This document shows, one piece after another, positions 29,310-55,851 of a DNA stretch of 64,000 nucleotides. The notes beneath the pieces were generated by a model. It was given only the letters and a program-made list of their open reading frames with translations, ran no database searches and was not told the origin of the DNA. Origin of the DNA: Aggregatilineales bacterium (GTDB lineage Bacteria; Chloroflexota; Anaerolineae; Aggregatilineales; Ch27). Location of the stretch: contig JARKOQ010000122.1 of the NCBI GenBank assembly GCA_029976005.1, forward strand, positions 1 through 64,000, in the 5' to 3' direction. How positions within the stretch are numbered: position 1 is the stretch's first letter; each line of letters begins with the position of its first letter. The translations under genes and the position numbers were made by a program.

Positions 29310-30983
29310 CTACCCGATGATCACCGTCTTTGCCGGGTGGAAGGTGCTTTCCGCCACGCGGGCGACGATGGCCGCCACGTCCGGCGCGGCCCGGCCCTCG
29401 CCCAGCGCGATCCGCACCCCGCGCACGCCTGCGTCCAGCGTGGGCAGCGCCTCCCCGCCGATCAGGATCGCGGCCGGGTCGAGGCCCAGCTTGAGGTAGG
29501 ACTGGCCCTGGGCCAGTACATGCGCATCCTGGGCGATCAGGAGGTCCAGCCCGCCGAACTGGCGCACGACCGCGTCCAGCGCGGCGCGGACGGCCTCCGG
29601 CCGGGCCGGATTGCCGGACAGAGTCGCCAGGCCGGGTTTGTCCGCGCCGGGGGTGTCCGTGAGGCTCAACACGGCCGCGCCCCGGCTGTGCAGCGCGGCG
29701 GCGATGGCCTGGCCGAGCGATCCATCGGCGCAGGCGACCAGCCCGATCCGGCCCTGGAGGGGCGGTGGCGCGCTGGCGTGTTTGAACTTGGCCTGCTGCA
29801 ACTCCCAGTACTCCATGTCGAAGAAGTGATCCTCGCTGGGCACCTGCCAGCCGCCCAGGTGTTCGGCCTGCTGGATGGCCTGGACGGTGTGGCGCGCGAT
29901 GTCGGCGTAGGTTTCGGTATTCTTGACCGTCGGCCCGAAGGACAGCGTGCCAATCCCGCGCCACACGCCCCAGCGCGGGCCGGGGTCGAGCATGATGTGC
30001 CGTGGTTCGGCGTGGCGGGCGAAGTAGGCCCGGTAGTCGTCGGCGAAGCGGGCGATATCGGCCTCGATCTCGCCGCCAATGAGGGCCGGGGTGTGCTTGA
30101 TGCGGCTGACGTGATCGGGCGTCAGGTTGCCGCGCGAAGTCAGATCGGCCACGTTCGGCAGGCTGGCGAAGCCCTGGCTTTCCGGCGTGACTTCCAACCG
30201 GGCCAGCATCGGCTGCCCGGCCGCCTGGGAGACGGCCCGCCGGATCCGGCACAGCGCCTCCAGGTCGATCGCGGCCGGCTGCGCGGCGCGGGCGATGGCA
30301 TCCAGCGCGCCCTGCTGGCGCAGGTAGTCCTCGGCCTGGCTGACCAGGGCGATCATCCGGTCGTAGCTCTGGCGGGCGTCGTCGGCGAAGGTGAAGATGC
30401 CGTGGTTGAGCAGGATCATGGCGTCGAGCGCCGGCCAGTCGATCCCGCGCGTGGCATGGTAGAACGCCTTGGCCAGCTTGAACCCGGCCATCACGTAGGG
30501 CAGGACGAGCACCCGTTCGCCGTAGAGTTCCCGGATCAGCTCCGGCCCGCGCGGGGTGTTGCTGATCGTCAGGACAGGGTCGGCGTGGGTGTGGTCGACG
30601 AAACGATAGGGCACCAGGGCGTGCAGGATCGCCTCCACCGAGGGGTTGGGCGCGGACGGGTCGAGCATCCCCGCCCGCTGCTCGCGCACAATCTCGCTGT
30701 CGGTGACGTGGTCCATCTCGGCGAGGCGGAGCAGCACGTCGCGCCGTACCGGGGCGAAGCCGCCCACGTCGATCGTGCCCAGGTCGTGCCCGCTGCCCTT
30801 GACGTAAACGACCTCGACTTCGTCGCCCAGGAAGGTGCGCACGGTCAGCTTGACCGAGGTATTGCCGCCGCCGTCCAGCACCAGGGAAGGTTCCTGGCCC
30901 AGCAGCCGGGAGGTATAGACGCGCAGTTGGAGCGGATCGTCCCCGCAGGCGCGGGCCTCGGAGTCGTTCCAGCGGTTGTTCAT
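29310..30983 (-). CDS. class II aldolase/adducin domain protein with C-terminal Rossmann/SDR-like domain
   Basis: LDGGGNTSVKLT..VYVKGSGHDLGTI; PSVEAILHALVPYRFVDHTHADPVLTISN; LLNHGIFTFADDARQSYDRM; C-term RIGLVACADGSLGQAIAAALHSRGAAVLSL. Confidence 0.88.
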   Translation of the reverse strand: MNNRWNDSEARACGDDPLQLRVYTSRLLGQEPSLVLDGGGNTSVKLTVRTFLGDEVEVVYVKGSGHDLGTIDVGGFAPVRRDVLLRLAEMDHVTDSEIVREQRAGMLDPSAPNPSVEAILHALVPYRFVDHTHADPVLTISNTPRGPELIRELYGERVLVLPYVMAGFKLAKAFYHATRGIDWPALDAMILLNHGIFTFADDARQSYDRMIALVSQAEDYLRQQGALDAIARAAQPAAIDLEALCRIRRAVSQAAGQPMLARLEVTPESQGFASLPNVADLTSRGNLTPDHVSRIKHTPALIGGEIEADIARFADDYRAYFARHAEPRHIMLDPGPRWGVWRGIGTLSFGPTVKNTETYADIARHTVQAIQQAEHLGGWQVPSEDHFFDMEYWELQQAKFKHASAPPPLQGRIGLVACADGSLGQAIAAALHSRGAAVLSLTDTPGADKPGLATLSGNPARPEAVRAALDAVVRQFGGLDLLIAQDAHVLAQGQSYLKLGLDPAAILIGGEALPTLDAGVRGVRIALGEGRAAPDVAAIVARVAESTFHPAKTVIIG

Positions 30984-31006
30984 GGGGGCCTTCAGCTTTC
31001 GACAAA

Positions 31007-31041
31007 ACAGTGGCCAGTTATCAGTTCACAGTCGACAGTCA
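31007..31041. repeat. degenerate CAGT-type repeat
   Basis: cagtggccagttatcagttcacagtcgacagtcaag, same style as 27670-27708. Confidence 0.5.
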
Positions 31042-31137
31042 AGAACCATCCGGTTGCGCCCGTCTCTTTACTCTCTGGGATAAAGCAGTCAGTCCGGCCA
31101 AAACGAGGGATCGGATTGGCATGGACAAGGTTGGCAA

Positions 31138-31163
31138 GGGGGCGGCCAGACAGCGCCGCCCCC
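31138..31163 (-). terminator. hairpin downstream of SDR gene
   Basis: gggggcgg ... ccgccccc, 8-bp stem. Confidence 0.5.
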
Positions 31164-31197
31164 AATTCAACACTTAAAACTCAACACTCAACCCTGC

Positions 31198-31992
31198 CTA
31201 GATCACCCGGTCGCTGCCGCCGTCGATGGTGAGCTGCGCGCCGGTCGTCTTGGCGAAGACCGGGCCGCACACCTCGGCGGCCATCTCGCCGAAGTCGCGG
31301 CTGTAGACTTCGGTCTTGAGCAGGTTGTTGGTCTTGTACTCTTCCACGCTGATGCCGTAATTCTTGGCCCGCGCCTGGAGGACTTCTTCCGTCCACAGGC
31401 CGGTGTCGAAGATCGCATGGGCGTGGATGACATTGACCCGGATGCCGTCCTTGGCCCATTCCAGCGCCGCCACGCGGGCGAGCTGGGTCACGGCCGCTTT
31501 GGAGACCGAATAGGCGGCCGCGCCGGGTCCAGGCGCGAGGGCGTTGCGCGAGCCGTTGACCACCACGCGCCCGCCGTTCTTGGCGACCTTGAGCAGCGGG
31601 TAGGCTTCGCGCATCAGGAGCAGGTTGGCGTCCAGGTTGATGTTCAGCACGCGCCGCCACTCGTCCAGTTGAAGCGCGTCGATCCGGCAGCCGGCGGGGA
31701 AAACTCCGGCATTGAGGACGAGCATGTCCAGCCCGCCGAAGCGCTCCGCCACCTGGGCGAAGGCGGCCTTGACGGCGTCTTCCTTGGTGAGGTCGCACTG
31801 GATGCCCAGGTATTCCGGGCGGTCGTACAGGTTGACGATGGCCGGGTTGATGTCCAGGCCGACAACCGACGCGCCGCGCGCCAGGAAGGACTCGGCGCAG
31901 GCTTTGCCGATGCCGGAGGCCGCGCCCGTGATCAGCGCCACTTCGCCGGCGAACATGCCCTGGCGCGGCGCTGCGAGGTCTTGAGGAGTCAT
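31198..31992 (-). CDS. SDR family NAD(P)-dependent oxidoreductase
   Basis: ALITGAASGIGKACAESFL; NAG motif VLNAGVF; YSVSKAAVTQL; 264 aa. Confidence 0.94.
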   Translation of the reverse strand: MTPQDLAAPRQGMFAGEVALITGAASGIGKACAESFLARGASVVGLDINPAIVNLYDRPEYLGIQCDLTKEDAVKAAFAQVAERFGGLDMLVLNAGVFPAGCRIDALQLDEWRRVLNINLDANLLLMREAYPLLKVAKNGGRVVVNGSRNALAPGPGAAAYSVSKAAVTQLARVAALEWAKDGIRVNVIHAHAIFDTGLWTEEVLQARAKNYGISVEEYKTNNLLKTEVYSRDFGEMAAEVCGPVFAKTTGAQLTIDGGSDRVI

Positions 31993-32167
31993 AGGGAAGA
32001 ATCCTTTGCCAATCTCGAATCAGAGACCACCGCGCCGGGTTCTGCCTGGGGGGCGGTGGATGGAGACACGCTGCGATACCCTGACCGGTTGGGGGAAAGA
32101 CGATTCATACCCCTGGAAGAACATCCAGACGACGCATCTTGATTCCCGCAGGGGGAGCGAGGCCCCC

Positions 32168-32195
32168 GTGGGGGCGTTCAATTGAACGCCCCCAC
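32168..32195. repeat. 28-bp perfect palindrome
   Basis: gtgggggcgttcaa|ttgaacgcccccac between SDR and LsrF-like genes. Confidence 0.75.
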
Positions 32196-32245
32196 ACCGA
32201 CATCCTGTGGATTGTCAGGTTGTTTCAAACCTCAACGGCCTGCGG

Positions 32246-33052
32246 CTATTTCTTGGCCTTGGCCGCCGCGTCCATCTTCTCAAAGAGGGCATTCGCTTCG
32301 TCCACGCTGGCCTTCTCGTGGATGACGGCCTTCAGGGCGCGGGCGACGGCGGGCGGATTGGGCGCCTGCCAGACATTGCGGCCCAGGTTGATGCCCTTCG
32401 CGCCGCGCTGCATGCCGTCGTGGACGAATTCCAGCACTTCACGGGTGGTATCGCACTTGGGGCCGCCGGCGATCACGACCGGGACGGGGCAGCCTTCGGT
32501 GACCTTCTCGAAGTTCTCGCACCAGTAGGTCTTGACCACGGCCGCGCCGACTTCGGCGAACATGCGGGCCGCCAGGGCCAGGTAGCGGGCTTCGGGCTTC
32601 TTGTCCTTCAGTTCCTTGCCAAGCGCGGTAACGGCCATCACCGGGATGCCGTACGGTTCGCACAGGTTGACCAGCTTGGCCAGGTTGCTCATGGTCTGCC
32701 GTTCGTGCTCGGAACCAATGAAGATGGAGACGCCCACGGCCGCGGCATTCAGACGGATGACTTCGTCGATCGAGGTCAGGACTTCTTCGTCGGTCAGGTC
32801 GCCCAGGATGCTCGACCCGCCGGAGACGCGCAGGATGATCGGCAGCGGGTAGCTCGGATCGATGGCCGAGCGCAGGACGCCGCGCGTCACGAACAGCGCG
32901 TCGCAGTACTGCGTGATCGGGGCGATCGTCTTGGCGGGCTTTTCCAGCATGCTGGTCGGGCCAAGGAAGTAGCCATGATCGATCGGCAGATAGAAGCAGT
33001 GGCCGTCCTTGCGGAACAGCTTCGACATTCGGTTGGCTTTACCCCAGTCCAT
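32246..33052 (-). CDS. class I aldolase / LsrF-like (DeoC/FbaB family) protein
   Basis: CFYLPIDHGYFLGPT; GAAVVKTYWCENFEKVTEGCPVPVVIAGGPKC; QRGAKGINLGRNVWQ. Confidence 0.88.
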   Translation of the reverse strand: MDWGKANRMSKLFRKDGHCFYLPIDHGYFLGPTSMLEKPAKTIAPITQYCDALFVTRGVLRSAIDPSYPLPIILRVSGGSSILGDLTDEEVLTSIDEVIRLNAAAVGVSIFIGSEHERQTMSNLAKLVNLCEPYGIPVMAVTALGKELKDKKPEARYLALAARMFAEVGAAVVKTYWCENFEKVTEGCPVPVVIAGGPKCDTTREVLEFVHDGMQRGAKGINLGRNVWQAPNPPAVARALKAVIHEKASVDEANALFEKMDAAAKAKK

Positions 33053-33138
33053 CAGATTATCTCCTTGATAGTCGTTGATTTATCCCGGCTTCGGAGGCGG
33101 TCCGCCGCCAGGTCGAACAGCGAATGGGTGCGAACAGG

Positions 33139-33432
33139 CTAGTCGTTGATGTAATCCACCGTGCCGGAGGTTTCCACGAAGCCCCGGACGTAGGTGGCGA
33201 CGGCCACGTGATCCGGGTTGACGCGGAACGCCGCGACATCTTCCATCGTGTCGAAGGTGGAATACACCACCAGATCATACGGCTTGGAAGACGCGCCGAC
33301 GTTGATGCCGACTTCCCACTTGCGGATCAGGTCGATCTTACCCTTGAGCGACAGCAGCCGGGCCTTGAGGTCCTCGACCGTGCCGGGCGGGCAATCCGGC
33401 TTGAGCTTGAACATGACGATGTGGGTGACCAT
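33139..33432 (-). CDS. Dabb (stress-responsive alpha/beta barrel) domain protein
   Basis: MVTHIVMFKLKPDCPPGTVEDLKARLLSLKGKI...YDLVVYSTFDTMEDVAAFRVNPDHVAVATYV. Confidence 0.88.
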   Translation of the reverse strand: MVTHIVMFKLKPDCPPGTVEDLKARLLSLKGKIDLIRKWEVGINVGASSKPYDLVVYSTFDTMEDVAAFRVNPDHVAVATYVRGFVETSGTVDYIND

Positions 33433-33465
33433 GCCTCTATCCTTCCTGGGTACTGCGCTATCCAA

Positions 33466-34527
33466 TCAGGCCTTGCCCTTGATCTCGGCGGCCAGTTTGG
33501 CCAGGTTGACCGCGAACGGCTGGCGGATCACGCCGTACTCGGTCACGATGCCGGAGATCAGGTAGTTCGGGGTCACGTCGAAGGCCGGATTGCCCGCCGG
33601 GGAGCCTTCCGGCGCGATGCGCTGGCCCTGGATGACCGTGACCTCTTCCTGCTCGCGCTCCTCGATCTCGATCAGGTCGCCGTGCAGGATCGACATGTCG
33701 ATGGTCGAGTAGGGCGCGACCACGTAAAACGGCACGTGGTTTTCGTGGGCCAGGACGGCCAGGTTGTAGGTGCCGATCTTGTTGGTGGTGTCGCCGTTGG
33801 CGGCGATCCGGTCGGCCCCGACCAGGCACAGGTCCACCCCCCGGCGGCGCATGTAATGCCCCGACGCGCCGTCGGCGATGACCATGTGCTTGACGCCCAT
33901 GTTCTTCAGCTCCCAGGCGGTCAGGCGCGCGCCTTGCAGGCGGGGCCGGGTTTCGTCGACCAGCACGAACAGGTCCTTGCCCTGCTCGAAGGCCGAGCGC
34001 ACCACGCCCAGGGCCGTGCCCCAGCCGACGGTCGCCAGGCTGCCGGTGTTGCAGTGGTGGATGATGGTGGCCTTCTGGGGGACGAGGGCCGCGCCGTTGG
34101 CCCCCATGCGCTTGTTGATCTCGATGTCCTCGTCGGCGATCTTCTGCGCTTCGGCCAGCATGCCCTGGCGCAGCGCATCGGCGCTGGCCCAGCCGGGCTT
34201 CTCGACCACCCGCATCATGCGCTCCAGCCCCCAGAACAGGTTGACGGCCGTCGGGCGCGCCTTCGCCAGGAAGTCCTTGGCCGTTTTGAGGTCGGCTTGC
34301 AGGCCCTCGACCGTCGTCGCCTGGCTGTTGAAGGCCGCGATCGCCATGCCGAACCCGGCCGCCGCGCCGATGGCCGGCGCGCCGCGCACGACCATGGTCG
34401 TGATCGCGTCGCCGACTTCCTGATAGGTGTCGTAGCGCACAATCTTGAATTCGTGGGGCAGCAGGCGCTGCTCGATCATGCAGACCTGCCCGTTTTCCCA
34501 GAAGACGGTGCGCGTCTCTTCGATCAT
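33466..34527 (-). CDS. mtnA: S-methyl-5-thioribose-1-phosphate isomerase
   Basis: MVVRGAPAIGAAAGFGMA; HHCNTGSLATVGWGTALGVVRSAFEQGKDLFVLVDETRPRLQGARLTAWEL; VGADRIAANGDTTNKIGTY. Confidence 0.96.
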   Translation of the reverse strand: MIEETRTVFWENGQVCMIEQRLLPHEFKIVRYDTYQEVGDAITTMVVRGAPAIGAAAGFGMAIAAFNSQATTVEGLQADLKTAKDFLAKARPTAVNLFWGLERMMRVVEKPGWASADALRQGMLAEAQKIADEDIEINKRMGANGAALVPQKATIIHHCNTGSLATVGWGTALGVVRSAFEQGKDLFVLVDETRPRLQGARLTAWELKNMGVKHMVIADGASGHYMRRRGVDLCLVGADRIAANGDTTNKIGTYNLAVLAHENHVPFYVVAPYSTIDMSILHGDLIEIEEREQEEVTVIQGQRIAPEGSPAGNPAFDVTPNYLISGIVTEYGVIRQPFAVNLAKLAAEIKGKA

Positions 34528-34570
34528 GATTCAGTCCTTTCTGTGTGGCTGGCCGGCCGGCTTGTCGGCG

Positions 34571-35827
34571 TCAGCTCAGGGTGGTCTTGCCCCAGGGATA
34601 AGTCGGCTTGCAGGCCGTGGCAATCTCCACCAGGTCTTCGATGGTGTGGATCTGCTCGCGCTCCAGCAGCAGAGAGCGCCCGATGTGCAGGGCCAGGCTG
34701 CCCGCGATGGCGCGCTCGTGTACGTCCTGGATGCCGCGGATGTCCGCGACTCCGGCCAGCCCGATCACGCGCCGCATCATCTTGCACGCGCCCAGCCCGG
34801 CCGAATCCTGCAATACACGCAGCATGTAATCGTCCTGGTAGCCCTTTGGCATGTTGATCGGATCGGCCTGATCCCAGAACGGCTGGAATTCGCGCACGAA
34901 GACGTGCCACAGGTCGATCACGGTGTCCGTCAGGTACTTGCGGAAGTCGGCGCGTTTGGCCGGGTCAGGCGTGCGGACTTCGTGGGCGGCGTAGTTCAGG
35001 AACAGGTTGCCGATCACCGCGCCGATGTCGAAGCCCATCGGCCCGTAGTAGGCGAATTCCGGGTCGATGACGAAGGTCTCGGTCTGGTTGATCATGATGC
35101 TGCCTGTGTGCAGGTCACCGTGGACCAGCGCCTGGGCCTGCGTCATGAACTTTTCCTTCATCTTGGCGACTTCGACGTGCAGCTTCTCGTCGGCCTGGAG
35201 GGCCAGCACCTGCGGCTCCAGCTCCTTGTGGAAGCCGTTGCGCTCGGTGTAGCGGTAGGGTTCGGTAAAGATCAGGTCTTCCGTGATCTTGCACAGGTCG
35301 GGGTTGATGAAACGCTTGACTTCCAGTTTCTTGGTCTTGAAGTCCAGCGCCAGGTCGGAGGTGCCGCCCAGGGTCCTGGCCAGGAAGAGGCCGATGTGTT
35401 CGGCGAAACGCGGATACTTGATGCCCTCGATCAGCCCCTTGCGCATGATGATGTGGCGGTTCAGGTTCTGCATGGCGAAGAGGTACATGTCCGGGTCGTA
35501 GAAATAGACCCGCGGCGTGTGCTGGGGCACGAGCTTGTATTCGACCTTGAGGGCCTCGGCCTCGATCCGCGCCCGGTCGACGGGCAGCGGCCAGTCGCCG
35601 CCCACCAGGCGCAGGTAGGGCAGGGCCTGCTTGACGATGACGGTGCGCTCCTTGTCGGCTTCGGCCCAGATCCTGAAGACCAGATTCAGATTGCCGTCCC
35701 CGATCTCCTCGGCGACCAGCGGCTCGGTGGGACGGAAGACGTCGCCCATCTCAGGCCGCTGCCGGATGTAATCGACGATCGTCTCTGGGGTGAAGGGCTT
35801 GTAGTTGGGAGAGATATCCTCGTTCAT
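34571..35827 (-). CDS. mtnK: S-methyl-5-thioribose kinase
   Basis: EIGDGNLNLVFRIWA; VIVKQALPYLR; QALVHGDLHTGSIMI; IDPEFAYYGPMGFDIGAVIGNLFLNYA. Confidence 0.95.
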   Translation of the reverse strand: MNEDISPNYKPFTPETIVDYIRQRPEMGDVFRPTEPLVAEEIGDGNLNLVFRIWAEADKERTVIVKQALPYLRLVGGDWPLPVDRARIEAEALKVEYKLVPQHTPRVYFYDPDMYLFAMQNLNRHIIMRKGLIEGIKYPRFAEHIGLFLARTLGGTSDLALDFKTKKLEVKRFINPDLCKITEDLIFTEPYRYTERNGFHKELEPQVLALQADEKLHVEVAKMKEKFMTQAQALVHGDLHTGSIMINQTETFVIDPEFAYYGPMGFDIGAVIGNLFLNYAAHEVRTPDPAKRADFRKYLTDTVIDLWHVFVREFQPFWDQADPINMPKGYQDDYMLRVLQDSAGLGACKMMRRVIGLAGVADIRGIQDVHERAIAGSLALHIGRSLLLEREQIHTIEDLVEIATACKPTYPWGKTTLS

Positions 35828-35856
35828 GCGACTTCCTCTTTGCGAATGGCGGCATA

Positions 35857-35884
35857 CAACCTCTCACGCGGACGTGAGAAGTTG
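35857..35884. promoter_or_regulatory. hairpin in permease-mtnK intercistronic region
   Basis: caacctctcacg-cgga-cgtgagaagttg (11 of 12 paired). Confidence 0.5.
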
Positions 35885-35945
35885 CATGCACCTCGATTCG
35901 GGCGTAAGGAACAAGAACTTGCTGACTGACGGCGAGTGCGCAGGC

Positions 35946-36974
35946 TCAGATGGTCTGATCGCGCTGTTCTCGGCCGGCAAAGACCGTGTTGATCAGGAGC
36001 GCAATAAGCAGCACGACTCCGGTGATGAATTCCTTGAGATAGATGTCGATCGTGGGAATGTTGTCCAATCCGTTGCGCAGGGTGCCGTAAATCAGGAGCC
36101 CGACCACGGTCTGAAGCATGCTGCCGCGCCCACCGGCCAGCGACGTGCCGCCCAGCACGACCGCGCCGATGGTGTCGATCAGGAAGCTCTCGGTGGCATC
36201 CGGCTGGGCGCTGTGCAGGCGGCCCATGCTGATGATGCCCGCGAAGCCGGCCGTGAAACCGCAGATGGTCATGACGATGATCAGGACGCGGTTGGTGTTG
36301 ACGCCGGCCAGGCGGGCCGCCGCCTTATTGGCGCCCGTCATGTAGACGTAGCGCCCAAAGCGGGTATAGCGCAGGATCACGTGGCCCAGGAGCAGCATGA
36401 CGATCGCCACGATCACGATGACCGGCAGGCCATCGTTGCCGCCGATTTTCCCGCTGCCCAGGAAGGCCGCGACGTCCGACACTTCCGTGATGACGCGCCC
36501 CTTGCTGATGTAGGTCACCAACCCACCGGCGATGAGCTGCATGGCCAGGGTGGTCATGAAGGTCGGAATTCTGAAGCGCGCGCTGGCCACGCCGCTGATC
36601 AGGCCCAGCAGGGTCGCCACGCCGATCCCGGACAGGATCGGCCACGGCTCCGGGATGCCCATCTTGGTGAACATATGCGCGCCGAGCATGGCCGACAGGG
36701 CGGCCACGGCCGCGATGCCCAGGTCGATCTGGCCCAACAGCAGCACGAAGGTCATGCCGGTGGCGAAGATCGCCAGGGTGGAGACCTGGGTCAGGATGTT
36801 GCGCAGGTTGATCGGGCGCAGGAAACCTTCCGAGGCCAGGCCGAAGAACAGGAACAGCGCCGCCAGGGTCCACAGGGGCGCCAGGGCCGCGAAGCGCCTG
36901 GCCCAGACAGAAGACTTGGGCAATGCCCTGAGCTTTTCCACAAGCGAAGCCACGGTTGTTTTGGTGGAATTCAT
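35946..36974 (-). CDS. sugar ABC transporter permease (RbsC/LsrC-like)
   Basis: GMTFVLLLGQIDLGIAAVAALSAMLGA; hydrophobic. Confidence 0.93.
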   Translation of the reverse strand: MNSTKTTVASLVEKLRALPKSSVWARRFAALAPLWTLAALFLFFGLASEGFLRPINLRNILTQVSTLAIFATGMTFVLLLGQIDLGIAAVAALSAMLGAHMFTKMGIPEPWPILSGIGVATLLGLISGVASARFRIPTFMTTLAMQLIAGGLVTYISKGRVITEVSDVAAFLGSGKIGGNDGLPVIVIVAIVMLLLGHVILRYTRFGRYVYMTGANKAAARLAGVNTNRVLIIVMTICGFTAGFAGIISMGRLHSAQPDATESFLIDTIGAVVLGGTSLAGGRGSMLQTVVGLLIYGTLRNGLDNIPTIDIYLKEFITGVVLLIALLINTVFAGREQRDQTI

Positions 36975-38458
36975 ATGAGCCTCATCAATGCGTCTTTGTC
37001 CAGGTTCTTGTTTTCCAGGCGAGAGACGATCCTGCCGCGTGACATCACGACGATCCGGTCGCAGACGGCCAGGATGGTTTCTGGTTCGGAGGATGCCACG
37101 ATGACTCCGTAGCCCTCGTCGCGGAATTTGCGCAGCAGCCCCAGGACTTCGCTCTTGGCTCCCACGTCCATGCCGCGAGTCGGCTCGCTCATGATGAAGA
37201 CCTTGGGCGGAAAGGTGAGCCAGCGCGCAATGGCGACCTTCTGCTGGTTGCCGCCGCTGAGCTTGCCGACCGGGTTGAGCGGATCGGGCGGGTTGACGTT
37301 CACCTGCTGGATGGCGGGCACGGCCGCCGCCAGCTCCTTGGCACGCTGGGGGGCCAGCGTGCCGATCTTGCTCAAATGGGGCATGGTGATGTTGCGGTAG
37401 ATCGCGTCGTCCAGCAGCAGGCTCTTGCGGCGCGACTCGGTGGCGTAGGCCAGCCCGTTTTCGATGGCGTAGCGGGCGGAATGGCCGTGCGGGAATGTCT
37501 TGCCGTCCAGGATGATCGAGCCGCTGTCGAACTTGTACAGGCCGAACAGGGCGCGGGCCAGGTCGAAGTGTCCGGCGCCGATCGGGCCATACAGCCCCAG
37601 GATTTCGCCGCGCTTGACGTTCAGGTTGATGTCGCTGAAGACGTCGGCGTTCAGGTCCTTGATCTCCAGCAGGGTTTCCTGGTACTCGGAGCCGATTTCC
37701 TCCGGATGGGTGGAGCGCGTGATCTCGCGGCCCAGCATCAGGCCGATCAGCCGGTCGACCGTGGCTTCCTGGCTGTCGAGCGTGCCCACGCTGACGCCGT
37801 TGCGCAGCACGGTGGTCCGGTCGGCGACCTGGACAACTTCTTCCAGGAAATGGGAGATGTAGATGATGCTCCGGCCCTGGCTTTTCAGGGTCTTGACCAG
37901 CTCGATCAACTGTTTGACTTCGGCCGGGGAAAGGGCCGAGGTCGGCTCGTCCATCACCAGCACACGCGCACCGGAGAGAATCGCGCGGAAGACCTCGATG
38001 ACCTGCTGGGTGCCCAGGGAGAAGCGCTCCAGGGGCATCGTCACGTCGATGTCGAATCCCAGGCTGTGGAGTTCTTTTTGGGCGACCTGTTCCATGCTGC
38101 GCCAGTCAATTATCCCCCAGCGGGTGACGGGCTGGCGGCCCAGGAACAGGTTTTCGGCCACGGAAAGCTCCGGGATCACGCTCAGTTCCTGATGGATCAT
38201 CCCAATGCCGTGCTCCAGCGCGTCGTGGGGCGAATGGAACTGGATTTCCTTGCCGTCCAGATAATAGCTGCCTTCGTATTCGGTGTAGATACCCGCCAGG
38301 ATGCGCATCAGGGTGCTTTTCCCGGCGCCATTTTCCCCGACCAGGGCATGCACTTCGCCCTCGACCAGGTCGAAATCGACGTGCTGCAAGGCCTGGATGG
38401 AGCGGAAGTTCTTCGAGATGTTTTTGAGTTCCAGGATCGGCTGCTTGTTCACATCCAT
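36971..38458 (-). CDS. sugar ABC transporter ATP-binding protein (RbsA-like)
   Basis: GENGAGKSTLMRIL; LSGGNQQKVAIARWL; SEPTRGMDVGAK. Confidence 0.96.
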   Translation of the reverse strand: MDVNKQPILELKNISKNFRSIQALQHVDFDLVEGEVHALVGENGAGKSTLMRILAGIYTEYEGSYYLDGKEIQFHSPHDALEHGIGMIHQELSVIPELSVAENLFLGRQPVTRWGIIDWRSMEQVAQKELHSLGFDIDVTMPLERFSLGTQQVIEVFRAILSGARVLVMDEPTSALSPAEVKQLIELVKTLKSQGRSIIYISHFLEEVVQVADRTTVLRNGVSVGTLDSQEATVDRLIGLMLGREITRSTHPEEIGSEYQETLLEIKDLNADVFSDINLNVKRGEILGLYGPIGAGHFDLARALFGLYKFDSGSIILDGKTFPHGHSARYAIENGLAYATESRRKSLLLDDAIYRNITMPHLSKIGTLAPQRAKELAAAVPAIQQVNVNPPDPLNPVGKLSGGNQQKVAIARWLTFPPKVFIMSEPTRGMDVGAKSEVLGLLRKFRDEGYGVIVASSEPETILAVCDRIVVMSRGRIVSRLENKNLDKDALMRLI

Positions 38459-38581
38459 GTGTTCTTTCCCTGCATCTCTCGTTCGGCAGGGGGGGAAGAC
38501 CCTGCGCCTTGCCTGTGTTCCGGTTGCGGTTCCGGCGACCTGATCCAGAATCGATCCGCGAGGCTGGAAAAAGGTGGTCGT

Positions 38582-38610
38582 GGGGCGGCGGCCAGGCCGG
38601 CCGCCGCCCC
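38582..38610 (-). promoter_or_regulatory. intercistronic hairpin after SBP gene
   Basis: ggggcggcggcc-aggcc-ggccgccgcccc, 12-bp stem. Confidence 0.75.
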
Positions 38611-38632
38611 TCTTGCTCGGATGGTATGCAGC

Positions 38633-39709
38633 CTAGAACTGGTACAGTTTCTCCATGTACAGCAGACCGTCGGCCGGGCTGAAGCCGTAGTTGCGCAGCT
38701 TCCATGGCTCTTCGGCCAGGTCGGGGTTGCTGTCGATGTCGGAGAACACGGCCGGGCCGTCCGCCAGGATGTAGAACGGCACTTCCCCGCGCGCGGCTTC
38801 CAGGCCGACGCTGGCGGCATACGCGCCGACCAGCACGCCCCAGCCGTGGATGCGGGTGGCCGAATTGCGCGCGGTGCCCTGCAGGCGGCCGTCGCGCACG
38901 GCTTCGATGGCGGGAGGCATGGCGTCCACGCCGCCGATCAACACCTGGTCGCTCAGGCCGGCGTTCTCGACGATCTGAGCCGCGGCCAGGGCCATGTCGT
39001 CGTTGTCGGCGAAGATGGCCTTCAGGTCAGGATGGCGGTTGAGGACGCTCTCGGTCAGGTCCGCGGCGCGGGTGACGTCCCAGTCGCCGGGCTGATCGTC
39101 CACGACCTCGATGTCGGGGTACTTGCTGACCAGGTTCCAGAAGCCCTGGCCGCGCGCCTGCGCGCCGGTGTGACCGGGCTGCCCGCCGATGTGCGAGATC
39201 TTGCCCGCGCCGCCCATCTTGTCGATCAGCTTCTGCACGACCGACTCGGCCATGAACACGTTGTCGGGGGCGATGAAGGTCAGGACGCCCAGGTCGGGCA
39301 GGTCCTGGAGCGGGGCGATGAGCGTGTCCATGTCGATGACGGGGGTGCCGGCGGCGACGAGGGCCTGGATCGGCTCAATCAGCGTGCCAATGGCGCCCGG
39401 TTGGACGGCCACGAAGTCCCATTGCTGGGTGGCGAGCTGGTCGAACTTGGCGCGCTGGGCGGCCGCGTCGAACTCGCCGTCGAACCAGGTGATTTCCACG
39501 CCCAGCAGGTTGGCCCAATAGCGGGCAGCCTCTTCACCCTGGGCATTCCACGTGCCTGCCAGGCCGGCGCTGGACATGGCCGCCTTGAGGGGCTGATCCT
39601 GAGCGTGCGCGCGGCGGTATTCGATGAACGGCAGGAAGCTGGTGAGTGCCAGACCAGAACTGAAAGCGAGACCACTCTTCAGAAAATCGCGGCGATTCAG
39701 CTTTGACAT
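38633..39709 (-). CDS. sugar ABC transporter substrate-binding protein (RbsB-like, Tat-like signal)
   Basis: MSKLNRRDFLKSGLAFSSGLALTSFLPF; AIFADNDDMALAAAQIVENAGLSDQVLIGGVDAMPPAIEAVRDG. Confidence 0.93.
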   Translation of the reverse strand: MSKLNRRDFLKSGLAFSSGLALTSFLPFIEYRRAHAQDQPLKAAMSSAGLAGTWNAQGEEAARYWANLLGVEITWFDGEFDAAAQRAKFDQLATQQWDFVAVQPGAIGTLIEPIQALVAAGTPVIDMDTLIAPLQDLPDLGVLTFIAPDNVFMAESVVQKLIDKMGGAGKISHIGGQPGHTGAQARGQGFWNLVSKYPDIEVVDDQPGDWDVTRAADLTESVLNRHPDLKAIFADNDDMALAAAQIVENAGLSDQVLIGGVDAMPPAIEAVRDGRLQGTARNSATRIHGWGVLVGAYAASVGLEAARGEVPFYILADGPAVFSDIDSNPDLAEEPWKLRNYGFSPADGLLYMEKLYQF

Positions 39710-39830
39710 CTGTTCTCCTCCGTGGTGGAAAAATCTAGAAGCTTATTGAGCCGGAATACTGCCGAACCATTTGTGCAGTATGTGAACTGACACCCCCTTT
39801 CTGTGAACGGTCTCAGAGTTTCCGTCTTGA

Positions 39831-39859
39831 AGGATAGGGCCAATTCCGGGCCATGTCAA
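39831..39859 (-). promoter_or_regulatory. sigma70-like promoter upstream of SBP gene
   Basis: Minus strand TTGACA-17 nt-TATCCT. Confidence 0.5.
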
Positions 39860-39935
39860 ATTAGTACTTGGTTACAGTGCCTAAATAATACTTGTATAAT
39901 CTACCCGATCTGTCCAGGCGGTCCGCGCCGCCGGA

Positions 39936-40793
39936 TCAGGCATCCACCACCTTGTCCAGCACCAGCTCCCAGATGCGGCGCTCGTTCAGGTTGGTGCGGT
40001 CGAGATGGCGCATGGCCAGGGCCATGTACAGCACGTCGTTGATCGCCAGCAGGGCCAGGCGGGCGATGACCGCCTCCAGGCGGGTTTCCCGCGCGCCGTA
40101 CAGCAGCACGATGTCGGCATGGTTGGTCAGCGGGGAGTAGGCCGAGCCGGTGATGGCGATGGTGCGCGCGCCTTTTTCCTTGGCGCGGCGCAGGGCGTTC
40201 ACCGGGTCGACCGAGGCCCCGGTGTGCGACATCGCCACGACCACGTCCCGTTCGTCGACCAGGGCGATCCGCATGAGCTGGAGGTAGGGGTCGGTGACCG
40301 GCGTGCAGTTCAACTCCAGACGCAGCAGCTTGTTGTACAGGTCGTTGACGAAGGGGGTGGACGTTCCCACCCCGACCAGCAGCGTCTGGCGGGCCTGGTC
40401 GATGGTATTCACGGCCTGGGTCAGCGCGTCTTCGTCCAGGATATCCAGGGTGTGTTGCAAGGCCGAGATGCCGGACAGGATGGTCTTGCGGGCGATGCCC
40501 CCGATCGTGTCGTTCTGCTGGATTTCGTCGTGGACGACGCGCGTCGGATCGTTCAGGTAGTAGGTCAGGCCGAATTTGAATTCCAGATAGCCCCGGTAGC
40601 CCAGCGTCCGGCAGAAGCGCACGACGGTCGCTTCGCTGACCTCGGCCTGATCGGCCGTCTCGGAGATGGGGGCGGGGGCGACTTCGGCCGCGTGCTCCAG
40701 GACGTAATCCGCCACGCGGCGCTCCGCAGTCGACAGGGCGCTGTACTTCTCGCGGATGATATCGATTGGGTTGGTGGGCGTGGACAGGATCAT
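39936..40793 (-). CDS. MurR/RpiR family transcriptional regulator (HTH + SIS)
   Basis: AERRVADYVLEHAAEVAPAPISETADQAEVSEATVVRFCRTLGYRGYLEFKFGL; SIS domain LLVGVGTSTPFVNDLYNKLLRL. Confidence 0.95.
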   Translation of the reverse strand: MILSTPTNPIDIIREKYSALSTAERRVADYVLEHAAEVAPAPISETADQAEVSEATVVRFCRTLGYRGYLEFKFGLTYYLNDPTRVVHDEIQQNDTIGGIARKTILSGISALQHTLDILDEDALTQAVNTIDQARQTLLVGVGTSTPFVNDLYNKLLRLELNCTPVTDPYLQLMRIALVDERDVVVAMSHTGASVDPVNALRRAKEKGARTIAITGSAYSPLTNHADIVLLYGARETRLEAVIARLALLAINDVLYMALAMRHLDRTNLNERRIWELVLDKVVDA

Positions 40794-40809
40794 TGAAAGA
40801 TAATTTCAC
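40794..40809. promoter_or_regulatory. candidate RpiR operator site 1
   Basis: Minus strand GTGAAATTATCTTTCA (TGAAA-N5-TTTCA). Confidence 0.55.
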
Positions 40810-40865
40810 AATCTGGCGCAAAATGTGTTAGAATGAGACCTGATGCACCTTGAATGGGTGATGTA

Positions 40866-40881
40866 GTGAAATTTCATTTCA
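40866..40881. promoter_or_regulatory. candidate RpiR operator site 2
   Basis: GTGAAATTTCATTTCA (TGAAA-N5-TTTCA), 13 of 16 identical to site 1. Confidence 0.55.
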
Positions 40882-41041
40882 TAGAAATCATACAGGATTT
40901 TTTTGTTTTGTGCAATAGATTCAGATCGGGACTGGCATTCTACCGAAGTGTGTCCGGCATGATTCCCGGTCAGCGTTCCGGGGCCCGCGCCAGTTTCCGC
41001 CCGCCGTCGCGCCGGCCACACGCAAGCGAGAGGAGAAGACA

Positions 41042-41965
41042 ATGACCCCACAAGCGCAGCTCGATTGGGTGGCGGAAGTCCGGCGCGTGGCGCGCCAGAT
41101 CCGCCTGCGGGTGCTGGATCACGTGATCCGGCACAACGGGGGCTACCTCAGCCAGGCCTGCTCGTCGGCCGAGCTGTTCGCGACCCTGTACCTCAAGGTC
41201 ATGCAGCTCGGCCCCAGCCAGGCCCCACTGATCCCCCTGCCTTTTCCCGGCGTGCCCGGCCCGGACAACCCCCATTTTTTCACCGGGGCGGACTACAACG
41301 GCCCCAAGGCCCCGGACCTGGATCGCTTCATCTTTTCCCCGGCCCATTACGCCCTGGTGCTCTACTCGACCCTGATCGAGGTCGGGCGGATGGCCCCGGA
41401 AGGGCTGGCCCAGTTCAACCAGGACGGCAGCTCGGTCGAGATGATCGGCGCGGAGCATTCCCCCGGCGTGGAGACGACCACCGGCTCGCTGGCCCAGGCG
41501 ATCAGCCAGGCGGGCGGGATCGCCCTGGCGCGCCGGCTGCACGGCGACACCGGGCGGGTCTGGGTGCTGATGAGCGACGGGGAGTTCCAGGAGGGCCAGG
41601 TCTGGGAGGCGTTCGAGGCCCTGAGTTACTACCACCTGGACAACCTGGGGGTGTACGTCGACGCCAACGGCCAGCAGTGCGATGGCAAGATGGAAGACGT
41701 GATGGGCGTGGAACCGCTGGCGGCCCGGTTGGAGAGTTTCGGCGCGCGGGTCTTCGAGGTCGACGGCCACGATCCGGTCGCGCTGGCCGCCCCGGCGGCG
41801 CTGCCCCCGGATGGGCGGCCGCTGGTCGTCATCGCCCGCACCAATCCGATCTGCGAGATGGACATCCTGGAGGAGCGCGCGCCCAAGCTGCATTACGTGC
41901 GCTTCAAGTCCGAGGCCGAACGCGAGACTTACCGCCAGTTGTACGCTCAGCTCAGCCAGCGTTAG
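41042..41965 (+). CDS. transketolase N-terminal subunit (split transketolase)
   Basis: GSLAQAISQAGGIALARRL; TPP motif SDGEFQEGQVWEAFEAL...VDANGQQCDG; 307 aa. Confidence 0.93.
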   Translation: MTPQAQLDWVAEVRRVARQIRLRVLDHVIRHNGGYLSQACSSAELFATLYLKVMQLGPSQAPLIPLPFPGVPGPDNPHFFTGADYNGPKAPDLDRFIFSPAHYALVLYSTLIEVGRMAPEGLAQFNQDGSSVEMIGAEHSPGVETTTGSLAQAISQAGGIALARRLHGDTGRVWVLMSDGEFQEGQVWEAFEALSYYHLDNLGVYVDANGQQCDGKMEDVMGVEPLAARLESFGARVFEVDGHDPVALAAPAALPPDGRPLVVIARTNPICEMDILEERAPKLHYVRFKSEAERETYRQLYAQLSQR

Positions 41966-41975
41966 GAGACACGCC

Positions 41976-42983
41976 ATGGAAATCGTGATGCGGCCGCACG
42001 TCCGCAATTTCATCGAATGGGCCAAGGACAAGCCGGAAGTGGTCGTCCTCTCCGCCGACCTCACCAACTCGTGCGAGATTGGCGAGTGGCGCGACACCTA
42101 CCCGGATCGCTTCTTTTCGATGGGCCTGGCCGAGCAGAACATGCTGGGCTTCGCCGCCGGGCTGGCCCGCGAGGGATTCTTCCCCTTCCTGCATACCTTC
42201 GCGGTCTTCCTCTACCGCCGCCCCTACGATCAGCTCGCCATGTCGATCGCCTATCCCAACCTGCCGGTGCGGCTGATGGGCTTCCTGCCCGGCATCCTGA
42301 CCCCCGGCGGGGTCACGCACCAGGCGATCGACGACGTGGCCATCCTGCGCGCCACGCCCAACATGACCGTGCTCGACTGCGGCGACGCGACCGACGTGGA
42401 GAGCGTCCTGGACGTGGCCCAGGCCGTCAACGGCCCGGTTTACGTGCGGATGCTGCGCGGCGAGGTGCCGCGCCTGTTTGACCGCGCCGACCGGATGCGC
42501 CTCAACCGGGCGCGCGTCCTGAGCCGGGGCACTGACGTGGCGATCCTATCCTCCAGCGTGTGCACGGAGGAAGCCATGCGCGCCACGGCTGTCCTGCGCG
42601 CGCGGGGGGTCGGCATCCAGCACCTGCACGTCTCCACCCTGAAGCCGTTCAGCGACCCGGCCGTGATGGAGGCGATCCAGGCGGCCCGCTACGGCGTGAT
42701 CACGATGGAGAATCACTCGATCGTGGGCGGGCTGGGATCGGCGGTGGCCGAGCTGATGGCCGAGGCCGGGGCCGGCAAGAAGCTGGTGCGAATCGGCCTG
42801 CGCGACGTGTATGCCCACGGCGCGAGCCGCCATTACCTGATGAAGGAATACGGCCTGGATGCGATCTCGCTGGTCGGCGCGGTCGAGGGCCTGGTCGGGC
42901 AGCGCTTCGGGCTGACCGAGGACGATCTGGCCGCGGTGCGCTTGCAGGCGGTCCATAGTGAAGCCAAAGCGGAGGCGTTATGA
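41976..42983 (+). CDS. transketolase C-terminal subunit (split transketolase)
   Basis: FSMGLAEQNMLGFAAGLAREGFFPFLHTFAVFLYRRPYDQL; GGVTHQAIDDVAILRATPNMTVLDCGDATDVE; VITMENHSIVGGLGSAVAELM; start after ggag RBS. Confidence 0.94.
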   Translation: MEIVMRPHVRNFIEWAKDKPEVVVLSADLTNSCEIGEWRDTYPDRFFSMGLAEQNMLGFAAGLAREGFFPFLHTFAVFLYRRPYDQLAMSIAYPNLPVRLMGFLPGILTPGGVTHQAIDDVAILRATPNMTVLDCGDATDVESVLDVAQAVNGPVYVRMLRGEVPRLFDRADRMRLNRARVLSRGTDVAILSSSVCTEEAMRATAVLRARGVGIQHLHVSTLKPFSDPAVMEAIQAARYGVITMENHSIVGGLGSAVAELMAEAGAGKKLVRIGLRDVYAHGASRHYLMKEYGLDAISLVGAVEGLVGQRFGLTEDDLAAVRLQAVHSEAKAEAL

Positions 42984-44143
42984 CTCTACCCGATTTTGTC
43001 AGCGTGCCCGGCCTGTCGGGGATCCGCTTCCAGGTCGACTATCGCCTGACCGGCGACCGCGAGGAAGCCGCGGCCAAGGCCCAGGATATCTGCATCGAGC
43101 AGACCGTGGAATTCCCCGCCGAGCTGGTCCCGGCCGGGGACATTCGCCAGCACATCTTCGGCCGGATCGAGAGCCTGGAGCCGGACGGGCCGGACGCCTT
43201 CCTGGCGCGGATCAGCTACGCGGCGGAAGTCGCCACGACCGAGCTGACCCAGGTGCTCAACGTGCTCTTTGGCAATACCAGCATCAAGCCCGGAGTGCGG
43301 ATCGAGCGCCTCTACCTGCCGGCGGACTTCCTGGCCGCGTTCCGGGGGCCGCGCTTCGGCGTGCCCGGCCTGCGTGACCTGCTGGGCGTCCACGACCGCC
43401 CCCTGCTCGGCACGGCCCTCAAGCCGATGGGTATGTCGGCCGAGGCTCTGGCGGAGCTGGCCTACCGCTTCGCCCTGGGCGGGGTGGACGTGATCAAGGA
43501 CGATCACAGCCTGGCCGATCAGCCCTTCTGCCGGTATGAGGATCGCGTCGCGCGTTGCGCCGAGGCGGTGGCGCGGGCCAACCGCGAGACCGGCCAGCGC
43601 TGCCTGTACGTGCCGCACGTCTCGTCCACGGCCGACGGGACGCTCCAGCGGGCGCTCTTCGCCAGACAGGCCGGGGCGGGCGGGGTGATGGTCTGTCCAG
43701 GGCTGACCGGGTTTGATACAATGCGTCTCCTGGCGGACGACGACCGGCTCGACCTGCCGATCATCGCCCATCCGGCCCTGATCGGGAGCTTCACCACCAG
43801 CCCCACCAGCGGGATCGCGCACGATGCCCTGTACGGGCAGTTGATGCGCCTGGCGGGGGCGGACGCGACCATCTTCCCCAACTACGGGGGCCGCTTCTCC
43901 TTCAGCGTGGAGGAGTGCGCCAGCATCGCGGCGGGCTGCGCGGTGGAGATGGGCCACTTCCGCCCGATCTTCCCCTCGCCGGGGGGCGGGATGAGCGTCG
44001 ACCGGGTCGCGGACATGAGCCGCCTGTACGGCCGGGACGTGATCTACCTGATCGGCGGCGGCCTGCACCGGCACAGCCCCGACCTGGTGGAGAACGCCCG
44101 CCACTTCAGCCGAATGGTTCGCCAGGCGGCGGGCGCGGGGTGA
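42980..44143 (+). CDS. RuBisCO-like protein (RbcL superfamily, form IV)
   Basis: GTALKPMGMS (K175 region); GGVDVIKDDHSLADQPFCRYEDRV (K201 region); IIAHPALIGSFT; IFPNYGGRFSFS; FPSPGGGMSVD; YLIGGGLHRH; ATGA overlap with upstream gene. Confidence 0.93.
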   Translation: MTLPDFVSVPGLSGIRFQVDYRLTGDREEAAAKAQDICIEQTVEFPAELVPAGDIRQHIFGRIESLEPDGPDAFLARISYAAEVATTELTQVLNVLFGNTSIKPGVRIERLYLPADFLAAFRGPRFGVPGLRDLLGVHDRPLLGTALKPMGMSAEALAELAYRFALGGVDVIKDDHSLADQPFCRYEDRVARCAEAVARANRETGQRCLYVPHVSSTADGTLQRALFARQAGAGGVMVCPGLTGFDTMRLLADDDRLDLPIIAHPALIGSFTTSPTSGIAHDALYGQLMRLAGADATIFPNYGGRFSFSVEECASIAAGCAVEMGHFRPIFPSPGGGMSVDRVADMSRLYGRDVIYLIGGGLHRHSPDLVENARHFSRMVRQAAGAG

Positions 44144-44192
44144 TCCCGGCCCTGCATCGAGTCGTGACGAGTCCCGTCAGGGAGAGGTACGT

Positions 44193-44849
44193 ATGCCGAT
44201 CGAGGCCGTGATTTTCGACATGGACGGAATCCTGGTCGATTCCGAGGTGTACTGGAAGGCCGTCCGCGAGGACTTCGCCCGCGACCACGGGCGTGAATGG
44301 ACGATGGACGATCACAAGCGGGCGATGGGCCGCAACACGATCGAGTGGGCGGAGCAGATGGCCGAGCGCCTCCAGGTCGGGATGAGCCAGGAGGAGATCG
44401 CGTCGGACATCATCGGCCGGATGATCGCCGCCTACCGGGCGCACATGCCCTACCGGCCCGGCGCGCTGGAGGCGGTGCGCACCATCGCGGCCCGCTACCG
44501 GGTCGGGCTGGCCTCCGGGTCGCCGAGCCGTCTGATCCGGCACGTGCTGCGCGAGACCGGCCTGGACGAGGTGTTCGAGGTCACGGTTTTCGGGGACGAC
44601 ATCCCCAACGGCAAGCCGGCCCCGGACATCTACCTGGAGGCGCTGCGCCAGATGGGGGTGAGCGCCGATCGGGCCGCCGGGATCGAGGATTCGGCCAACG
44701 GCGTGCGCTCGGTCAAGGCCGCCGGGATGGCGGTCGTGGCCGTGCCCACGGCCGACTTCCCCCTGCCGCCGGAGGTCGCCGCCATCGCCGACCGCATCCT
44801 GGACGGCATGGAGTCGCTCTCGGTCGCGGTCATCGAAGGGCTGGGATAA
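44193..44849 (+). CDS. HAD-IA family phosphatase / beta-phosphoglucomutase-like
   Basis: VIFDMDGILVDSEVYW; GLASGSPSRLIRHVL; GDDIPNGKPAPDIYLEAL; GIEDSANGVRSVKAAGM. Confidence 0.94.
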   Translation: MPIEAVIFDMDGILVDSEVYWKAVREDFARDHGREWTMDDHKRAMGRNTIEWAEQMAERLQVGMSQEEIASDIIGRMIAAYRAHMPYRPGALEAVRTIAARYRVGLASGSPSRLIRHVLRETGLDEVFEVTVFGDDIPNGKPAPDIYLEALRQMGVSADRAAGIEDSANGVRSVKAAGMAVVAVPTADFPLPPEVAAIADRILDGMESLSVAVIEGLG

Positions 44850-53758: not shown

Positions 53759-53770
53759 AGCTGCATCTGT

Positions 53771-53788
53771 CCTGCAAACGATTACAGG
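53771..53788. promoter_or_regulatory. candidate LacI-family operator (imperfect)
   Basis: cctgcaaac|gattacagg, 7 of 9 symmetric, just upstream of lacI-like start. Confidence 0.6.
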
Positions 53789-53868
53789 TGCTATAGACCA
53801 GAACCCGCCTCGCGTTCGAAAAATAACGCGCTATTTGCCAGGCCGCGAGCCGGGAAAACGAGCCAGAT

Positions 53869-53886
53869 GTTGTAATCGATTACAAC
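53869..53886. promoter_or_regulatory. candidate LacI-family operator (perfect palindrome)
   Basis: gttgtaatc|gattacaac. Confidence 0.7.
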
Positions 53887-53936
53887 TCCAATAAAGCACC
53901 GAATGGCCGGTCTGTCAATAGGCTCGCCGGCGCGGA

Positions 53937-55814: not shown

Positions 55815-55851
55815 CGCCTTCTCCTTGGGCATTCCGGGCTGGCGAAACGAG

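Follow-up and report, generated by a model that had tools for sequence, protein, structure and literature searches.

Organization of the locus

In the metagenome-assembled genome of an Aggregatilineales bacterium (Chloroflexota; assembly 82% complete), the first 64,000 bases of contig JARKOQ010000122.1 (105,850 bases in all), hereafter the window, contain a divergent locus centered on an RpiR-family regulator gene, in which genes for a sugar transporter and for members of the 5-methylthioribose (MTR) kinase and 5-methylthioribose-1-phosphate isomerase families (MtnK and MtnA) lie opposite a split transketolase (tkN and tkC) and a RuBisCO-like protein (RLP). Hidden Markov model (HMM) scans of both strands recovered 14 genes, in the same order and on the same strands as in an earlier sequence-only reading of this DNA, with the outermost genes ending exactly at 29310 and 44849 (Table 1). 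Pfam cut-offs are passed by the Dabb, short-chain dehydrogenase (SDR), class II aldolase, Peripla_BP_4, RpiR (HTH_6 and SIS), transketolase N and Pyr/C, RuBisCO_large, and HAD matches. Alignment places the start of tkC at 41976 rather than 41811, with a 4-base overlap between its stop and the start of the RLP gene.

Table 1. Genes and candidate regulatory sites of the locus, in window coordinates.
Feature	Position	Strand	Family assignment or remark
Class II aldolase (aldolase/SDR fusion family), degenerate C-terminal SDR remnant	29310..30983	-	NF006196, PF00596
SDR	31198..31992	-	C-terminal SDR half of NF006196, 424 bits
LsrF-type thiolase (3-hydroxy-5-phosphonooxypentane-2,4-dione thiolase family)	32246..33052	-	NF006081
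Dabb (dimeric alpha-beta barrel) protein	33139..33465	-	PF07876, 85.6 bits
mtnA, 5-methylthioribose-1-phosphate isomerase family	33466..34527	-	TIGR00512, 422 bits
mtnK, 5-methylthioribose kinase family	34571..35827	-	TIGR01767, 509.8 bits
Sugar ABC transporter permease (RbsC type)	35946..36974	-	NCBIfam ribose permease, 193.7 bits, under cut-off
Sugar ABC transporter ATPase (RbsA/AraG type)	36971..38458	-	NCBIfam AraG, 453.9 bits, under cut-off
Periplasmic sugar-binding protein (Peripla_BP_4)	38633..39709	-	PF13407, 149.3 bits
RpiR-family regulator (HTH_6 + SIS)	39936..40793	-	PF01418, PF01380
Candidate RpiR operator TGAAAGATAATTTCA	40794..40808		Overlaps -35 region of plus-strand promoter-like site 40805-40834
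Candidate RpiR operator TGAAATTTCATTTCA	40867..40881		Second and last motif copy in the window
tkN, thiamine diphosphate (PP) subunit, divergent split transketolase	41042..41965	+	PF00456; closest PDB 6yak
tkC, Pyr/C subunit, split transketolase	41976..42983	+	PF02779, PF02780; closest PDB 6yaj
RLP, nearest DeepYkr clade	42980..44143	+	RuBisCO_large Pfam; best PDB match 3qfw
HAD phosphatase	44193..44849	+	PF00702/PF13419

MtnK and MtnA are co-conserved with the RLP and the split transketolase

Scanning an RLP alignment against about 85,000 species genomes returned 80 loci. The split transketolase adjoins the RLP in 57 of them, which come from at least 12 phyla. In 13 of these 57 transketolase-RLP loci, mtnK, mtnA, or both lie no more than 12 kb away; the combination is also present in loci L031, L117, and L118 and in the window. 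Clostridium ljungdahlii (L109) and Clostridium drakei (L112) have a collinear set in which genes for the solute-binding protein, ATPase, and permease are followed by mtnK-mtnA-tkN-tkC-RLP, with gaps of less than 25 bp from mtnK through to the RLP. Genome G056 carries a single run of RLP-tkC-tkN-mtnA-mtnK-permease-ATPase, G138 (Chloroflexi TC_22) has mtnA-mtnK and all three transporter genes near RLP-tkC-tkN, and in L118, from a one-contig genome, the mtnK-mtnA-tkN-tkC-RLP set is in reversed order. From the transketolase side, a search of 400 evenly drawn Chloroflexota genomes found the transketolase subfamily in eight and the RLP in 13, with the RLP directly adjacent in seven of the eight (Fisher test, 4e-11). 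Given the recurrence over phyla and this adjacency in Chloroflexota, we reject a chance neighborhood. Comparison of neighborhoods had been named beforehand as a way to refute a link between the two arms; they are syntenic in relatives, and the synteny supports the earlier proposal that MtnK and MtnA feed an RLP-transketolase branch in a scavenging locus. The two arms are co-conserved, and the module is real and widely conserved.

A contig labelled Candidatus Lokiarchaeota also carries mtnK-mtnA-tkN-tkC-RLP (L086:4592-10130), possibly through horizontal transfer or misbinning. Solute-binding proteins of family 1 (SBP_bac_1) are found near the RLP in several phyla, as at L049:12075-13277, with similar arrangements in L036, L046, L051, L056, L062, L066, L080, and L118.

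Both sugar-activating enzymes of the window pass curated equivalog cut-offs, MtnK with 509.8 bits against 275 (its best PDB match being the methylthioribose kinase 2olc) and MtnA with 422 bits against 279. The window gene is the sole MtnA match in its 82% complete assembly, and MtnA scores above its cut-off in all 50 RLP genomes, compared with 8/14 control genomes. 5'-Methylthioadenosine (MTA) phosphorylase (MTAP) is encoded in 46 of 54 genomes, the source genome among them. By protein family, import followed by the MtnK and MtnA reactions would be the predicted entry into the pathway.

The RLP resembles the DeepYkr isomerases

The best solved relative of the RLP is 3qfw from Rhodopseudomonas palustris (272 bits), followed by 4nas (173 bits) and MtnW (163 bits). 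In a tree of RLPs, 3qfw and all of our loci share one branch (support 100) apart from MtnW and 4nas, although 3qfw sits on a long branch and its exact placement is unsure. The structure is most likely that of RLP1, the DeepYkr enzyme, because, of the two R. palustris RLPs, RLP 2 is the one deposited as 2qyg. R. palustris RLP1 is a 5-methylthioribulose-1-phosphate (MTRu-1-P) 1,3-isomerase that makes 1-methylthioxylulose-5-phosphate and 1-methylthioribulose-5-phosphate, and a cupin methylsulfurylase encoded beside it consumes the RLP product (PMC5893883). The window RLP and 3qfw have a KDDH motif in common where MtnW has KDDE, and 59 columns of the RLP alignment are near-invariant. These similarities point to an RLP of the Rhodospirillum/Rhodopseudomonas DeepYkr type, which we predict to be a 1,3-isomerase acting on MTRu-1-P.

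The sequence-only reading had offered two precedents for the RLP, and only the Rhodospirillum-type isomerase holds up. The alternative, the Bacillus 2,3-diketo-5-methylthiopentyl-1-phosphate enolase MtnW, was rejected as the identity of the RLP, which scores 173.2 bits with TIGR03332 (cut-off 513.6) and 228.2 bits with NF007095 (cut-off 409). Acireductone dioxygenase (ARD, PF03079) has no match in any of the 54 genomes, including the source genome with its 82% complete assembly, and together with the RLP scores this led us to reject aerobic salvage through MtnW.

Another candidate identity, the oxo-isoapionate-4-phosphate decarboxylase OiaX, gives 94.5 bits with an NCBIfam equivalog whose cut-off is 700. 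The locus could then have belonged to a D-apiose/apionate (branched-pentose) pathway in which the RLP is OiaX-like and the transketolase acts on an apulose phosphate, an option that the earlier reading had left standing and that the occurrence of split transketolases and RLPs in apiose and apionate catabolism would favor. We now consider it highly improbable: the RLP is much nearer to 3qfw, MtnK exceeds its own cut-off, MtnA accompanies the RLP in every RLP genome surveyed, and no apiose-specific genes were seen at the related loci.

The transketolase alternates with a cupin methylsulfurylase

Cupins homologous to 3jzv (Rru_A2000) and 3kgz lie beside the RLP in L047, L048, L053, L071, and L075, and the transketolase is found in none of these five loci. 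Among 50 whole RLP genomes, a sample in which every locus lacking a neighboring transketolase was deliberately represented, tkC is present in 30, a cupin in 14, and both in one (Fisher test, 2.5e-6). A second, largely different set from the Chloroflexota gave the same picture, with a cupin in 0/10 transketolase genomes and in 7/8 RLP genomes without a detected transketolase, one of these eight (G124) having been checked for transketolase around its RLP only. The cupin methylsulfurylase likewise has no match in G056, in G138, or in the source assembly (G000, 82% complete).

On the RLP tree the transketolase and cupin labels interleave, with nine changes needed, and no column of the RLP alignment separates transketolase-linked from cupin-linked RLPs. 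Because of this interleaving and the lack of a separating column, the simplest reading suggested by the sequences is that all these RLPs carry out one reaction, whose product either the transketolase or the cupin can consume, and that the transketolase most likely takes the place of the cupin methylsulfurylase.

The transketolase lacks donor and acceptor residues

We aligned 47 tkN and 49 tkC sequences and surveyed their active-site residues. The thiamine diphosphate (ThDP) machinery is kept, including the DG of the GDG motif, N209, the catalytic glutamate E53, and H115, the equivalent of His473. Several other residues of E. coli transketolase are replaced: His26 by tyrosine (Y35 in tkN, 100% of aligned sequences), His100 by an invariant or nearly invariant MIGAEHSPG at the equivalent site in tkN, and, in 100% of aligned tkC sequences, Asp469 by PG (residues 110-111) and His461 by leucine (L104). 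In characterized transketolases His100 binds the donor; the residue is Phe in 1-deoxyxylulose-5-phosphate (DXP) synthase, and H100L/F variants accept pyruvate (PMC7661550). H100L combined with D469T also yields a transketolase that accepts pyruvate, a donor without the hydroxyl (PMC10787763). We propose a donor without a C1 hydroxyl because His100 and Asp469 are both lost and replacements at these positions let engineered transketolases take pyruvate; the double loss is as expected for such a donor and would fit, for example, 1-methylthio- or 1-deoxypentulose-5-phosphate.

More tentatively, and with rather more doubt than conviction, we suggest that the RLP-linked split transketolase may be a new phosphoketolase-like ThDP lyase that converts 1-methylthioxylulose-5-phosphate to glyceraldehyde-3-phosphate, an acetyl unit, and methanethiol. 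It might then define a widespread anaerobic route of methionine salvage and MTR catabolism in bacteria and on one or more contigs that have been assigned to Asgard archaea.

A more distant split transketolase (52-54% identity) with no RLP nearby was seen in L119 (G242), and could be an outgroup or have a different function.

A motif pair between the two arms

The 15-bp motif TGAAA-N5-TTTCA, picked by eye after reading the sequence, occurs exactly twice in the 64 kb, both times in the rpiR/tkN intergenic region, with 0.00 copies expected from shuffles. It is supported in this window only; we sought it in 12 related loci and did not find it upstream of rpiR in L066 or L101. The motif pair suggests that RpiR binds the shared intergenic region, and joint control of both arms by RpiR is plausible.

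Aldolase, dehydrogenase, and thiolase genes

The sequence-only reading had counted two aldolases on the minus strand. The class II aldolase (PF00596) was recognized correctly, and the LsrF-like protein belongs instead to a thiolase family (NF006081). The aldolase, of 557 amino acids, matches NF006196 with 519.9 bits over residues 1-493 (the whole-fusion cut-off of 831 is not reached), and an HTH motif at residues 131-133 provides candidate zinc ligands. Its C terminus is a degenerate SDR remnant, and an intact SDR is encoded separately upstream, so that the two genes look like a split aldolase/SDR fusion. A frameshift hiding a full SDR was rejected, as the SDR does not continue in any of the three frames downstream of 29310. 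SDRs 62-63% identical to that of the window adjoin the transketolase-RLP genes in L066 and L074.

The presence of mtnK, mtnA, aldolase, and SDR in one minus-strand run recalls the dihydroxyacetone phosphate (DHAP) shunt, which is described for many bacteria (PMC10986504). A standard shunt, in which MtnK, MtnA, and aldolase yield DHAP and an aldehyde that the SDR oxidizes, would make the RLP and transketolase genes an unrelated divergent neighbor operon. We judge this improbable. In several phyla mtnK and mtnA are collinear with the transketolase-RLP genes at loci without an aldolase (L031, L036, L086, L091, L109, L112, and L118), MtnA is present in all 50 RLP genomes surveyed, and the motif pair lies in the intergenic region common to both arms.

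The thiolase passes its curated cut-off (325.8 bits against 297), has the LsrF structures 3gkf and 3glc as its best PDB matches, and aligns at the Schiff-base lysine (K174). Oxidation of 5-deoxyribulose-1-phosphate at C4 gives 3-hydroxy-5-phosphonooxypentane-2,4-dione, the substrate of LsrF. LsrF is confined to loci of the transketolase type (6/57, compared with 0/23 loci without an adjacent transketolase), and those LsrF loci with enough flanking sequence have an SDR or MDR dehydrogenase nearby. The LsrF-SDR-aldolase arm is real and less widely conserved, and its role as a second branch of the pathway is less certain. The thiolase branch may be more complete at L080:11103-13869, where the RLP is followed by genes for ribulose-phosphate 3-epimerase, LsrF, and a zinc alcohol dehydrogenase.

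This arm also invites the view that the locus deals mainly with 5-deoxyribose, formed from the 5'-deoxyadenosine of radical S-adenosylmethionine enzymes, and that no sulfur is involved. The RLP would then make 1-deoxyxylulose-5-phosphate, the transketolase would act as a DXP synthase in reverse to give glyceraldehyde-3-phosphate and acetaldehyde, and the SDR and LsrF would turn 5-deoxyribulose-1-phosphate into DHAP and acetyl-CoA. The distribution of LsrF, the match of its substrate to oxidized 5-deoxyribulose-1-phosphate, LsrR-like regulators and ribulose-phosphate 3-epimerase near some related loci, and the loss of His100, which suits a donor lacking the C1 hydroxyl, all speak for it. We nevertheless think it unlikely, if well worth keeping in mind, as the characterized DeepYkr RLPs act on methylthioribulose-1-phosphate (PMC5893883), the alternative partner cupin is a demethylthiolase, MTAP is common in these genomes, and genes for Cys/Met pyridoxal phosphate (PLP) enzymes and corrinoid methyltransferases occur at some loci.

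A proposed pathway for 5-substituted riboses

Taken as a whole, the locus is in our judgment probably devoted to taking up 5-substituted riboses that arise from S-adenosylmethionine chemistry (MTR and probably also 5-deoxyribose) and degrading them without oxygen, through the RLP and then a transketolase that stands in for the cupin methylsulfurylase found in the MTA-isoprenoid shunt. The ABC transporter would import 5-methylthioribose or 5-deoxyribose, MtnK would phosphorylate the sugar at C1, and MtnA would open the product to 5-X-ribulose-1-phosphate, where X is SCH3 or H. The same intermediate could also be supplied from MTA by an MTA phosphorylase with its gene elsewhere in the genome. 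The RLP is predicted to shift the carbonyl by 1,3-isomerization, giving 1-X-xylulose- or ribulose-5-phosphate, which the split transketolase would take as its donor: ThDP would attack C2, the C2-C3 bond would break, and glyceraldehyde-3-phosphate would leave. With X = SCH3 the remaining enamine may expel methanethiol to leave an acetyl unit, and with X = H the C2 unit would leave as acetaldehyde. Such an expulsion has analogues in phosphoketolase, which expels water, and in Xsc (sulfoacetaldehyde acetyltransferase), which expels sulfite; by this analogy methanethiol is probably lost here. In a second branch, the aldolase might release DHAP and X-acetaldehyde, and the SDR might oxidize C4 of 5-deoxyribulose-1-phosphate for LsrF to yield DHAP and acetyl-CoA.

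Several observations weigh against this scheme. Genes for methyl-sulfur metabolism flank some transketolase-RLP loci, namely L038 (a corrinoid methyltransferase cluster and a Cys/Met PLP enzyme) and L058 (MtnP), but most have no sulfur gene beside them, and methanethiol release is for this reason the weakest and least certain step. Half of the cupin matches outside RLP neighborhoods are weak (about 87-108 bits), and some may be other cupins; phylogenetically independent pairs all point in the direction of exclusion between transketolase and cupin, and those on well-supported branches are too few for significance. Some clusters (L044, L074, and L098) contain DhaKL, HIBADH-like, or FGGY genes that the scheme does not explain. 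The HAD phosphatase and Dabb genes of the window fit no proposed step; the former has almost no counterpart at the 80 related RLP loci and hence lies outside the module core.

We found no description of an RLP-transketolase salvage pathway in the literature searched, which did not cover subscription papers. Oxygen-free disposal of MTA, MTR, and 5'-deoxyadenosine in anaerobes is only partly known, with two routes described, one through the cupin and one through the aldolase. The pathway proposed here is probably a third oxygen-independent route for MTR/MTA-type sugars, within the group formed by the MTA-isoprenoid and DHAP shunts. If so, the route would extend over 12 or more phyla, with sulfur bacteria and the industrial acetogen C. 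ljungdahlii among its carriers. It would assign a function to a large RLP group and to a transketolase subfamily named by homology only, and anoxic habitats would have a further source of methanethiol. The pathway would also offer a natural example of a transketolase reshaped to use a donor that lacks the C1 hydroxyl, as enzyme engineers have done by mutating the same residues.

Other gene clusters at related loci and in the window

At L038:3443-14108, genes for an MtaA-like methyltransferase, a RACo-type activase, a DUF1638 protein, and a corrinoid protein directly precede tkN-tkC-RLP, which is followed by the Cys/Met PLP enzyme; the arrangement is similar to that of the type I mlp clusters, for which a role in methionine salvage has been proposed (PMC10418091). 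The dihydroxyacetone kinase genes dhaK and dhaL adjoin the transketolase-RLP genes in L044, with an aldo/keto reductase, and in L074, with a HIBADH-like dehydrogenase. Five Chloroflexota loci (L098, L101, L108, L114, and L124) encode the same RLP family with an FGGY kinase directly before the RLP and neither transketolase nor cupin; where the contig reaches, the cluster includes dhaK, dhaL, a HIBADH-like dehydrogenase, and two permeases, with mtnK at the edge in L098 and L108, and it is probably a second RLP pathway.

Elsewhere in the window, a PAC2-family (proteasome assembly chaperone-like) protein is encoded directly downstream of the HAD gene (45120-46052), and a sensor histidine kinase of 1221 amino acids with multiple PAS and GAF domains lies at 14602-18267. 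On the minus strand at 51078-55832, a weak fucose-isomerase-like protein (551 amino acids) and a GHL10-type glycosyl hydrolase-like protein (631 amino acids) probably belong to another sugar-use cluster.

Relationship to known systems

The closest parallel is the MTA-isoprenoid shunt of Rhodospirillum rubrum and R. palustris, which likewise combines MtnA with a DeepYkr-type RLP, is independent of oxygen, and lacks acireductone dioxygenase. Unlike that shunt, the system described here has a split transketolase in an assembly where no cupin methylsulfurylase was found, and the sugar would also be imported and activated by MtnK. With the DHAP shunt for 5-deoxypentoses and MTR, known from extraintestinal pathogenic E. 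coli (ExPEC), R. rubrum, and R. palustris, it has in common MtnK, MtnA, and a class II aldolase in one gene run, but here the aldolase is of the aldolase/SDR fusion family (by its NF006196 assignment only), an LsrF-type thiolase is added, and there is an RLP-transketolase branch.

The split-chain transketolase of Carboxydothermus hydrogenoformans (6yak/6yaj) is similarly encoded by two genes and has the same ThDP site, catalytic glutamate, and His473; it keeps H100 and D469, whereas the RLP-linked subfamily is without H26, H100, D469, and H461 in all aligned sequences. The D-apiose/apionate pathways with OiaX also bring an RLP fold and a transketolase together in one pathway, but the RLP here misses the OiaX model and apiose-specific genes were not seen. 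The Lsr system for degradation of autoinducer-2 (AI-2) has an LsrF-type thiolase, and an LsrR-like regulator and ribulose-phosphate epimerase are found at some of our related loci; the window locus differs in that neither LsrK nor LsrG was seen there, and its kinase is MtnK.

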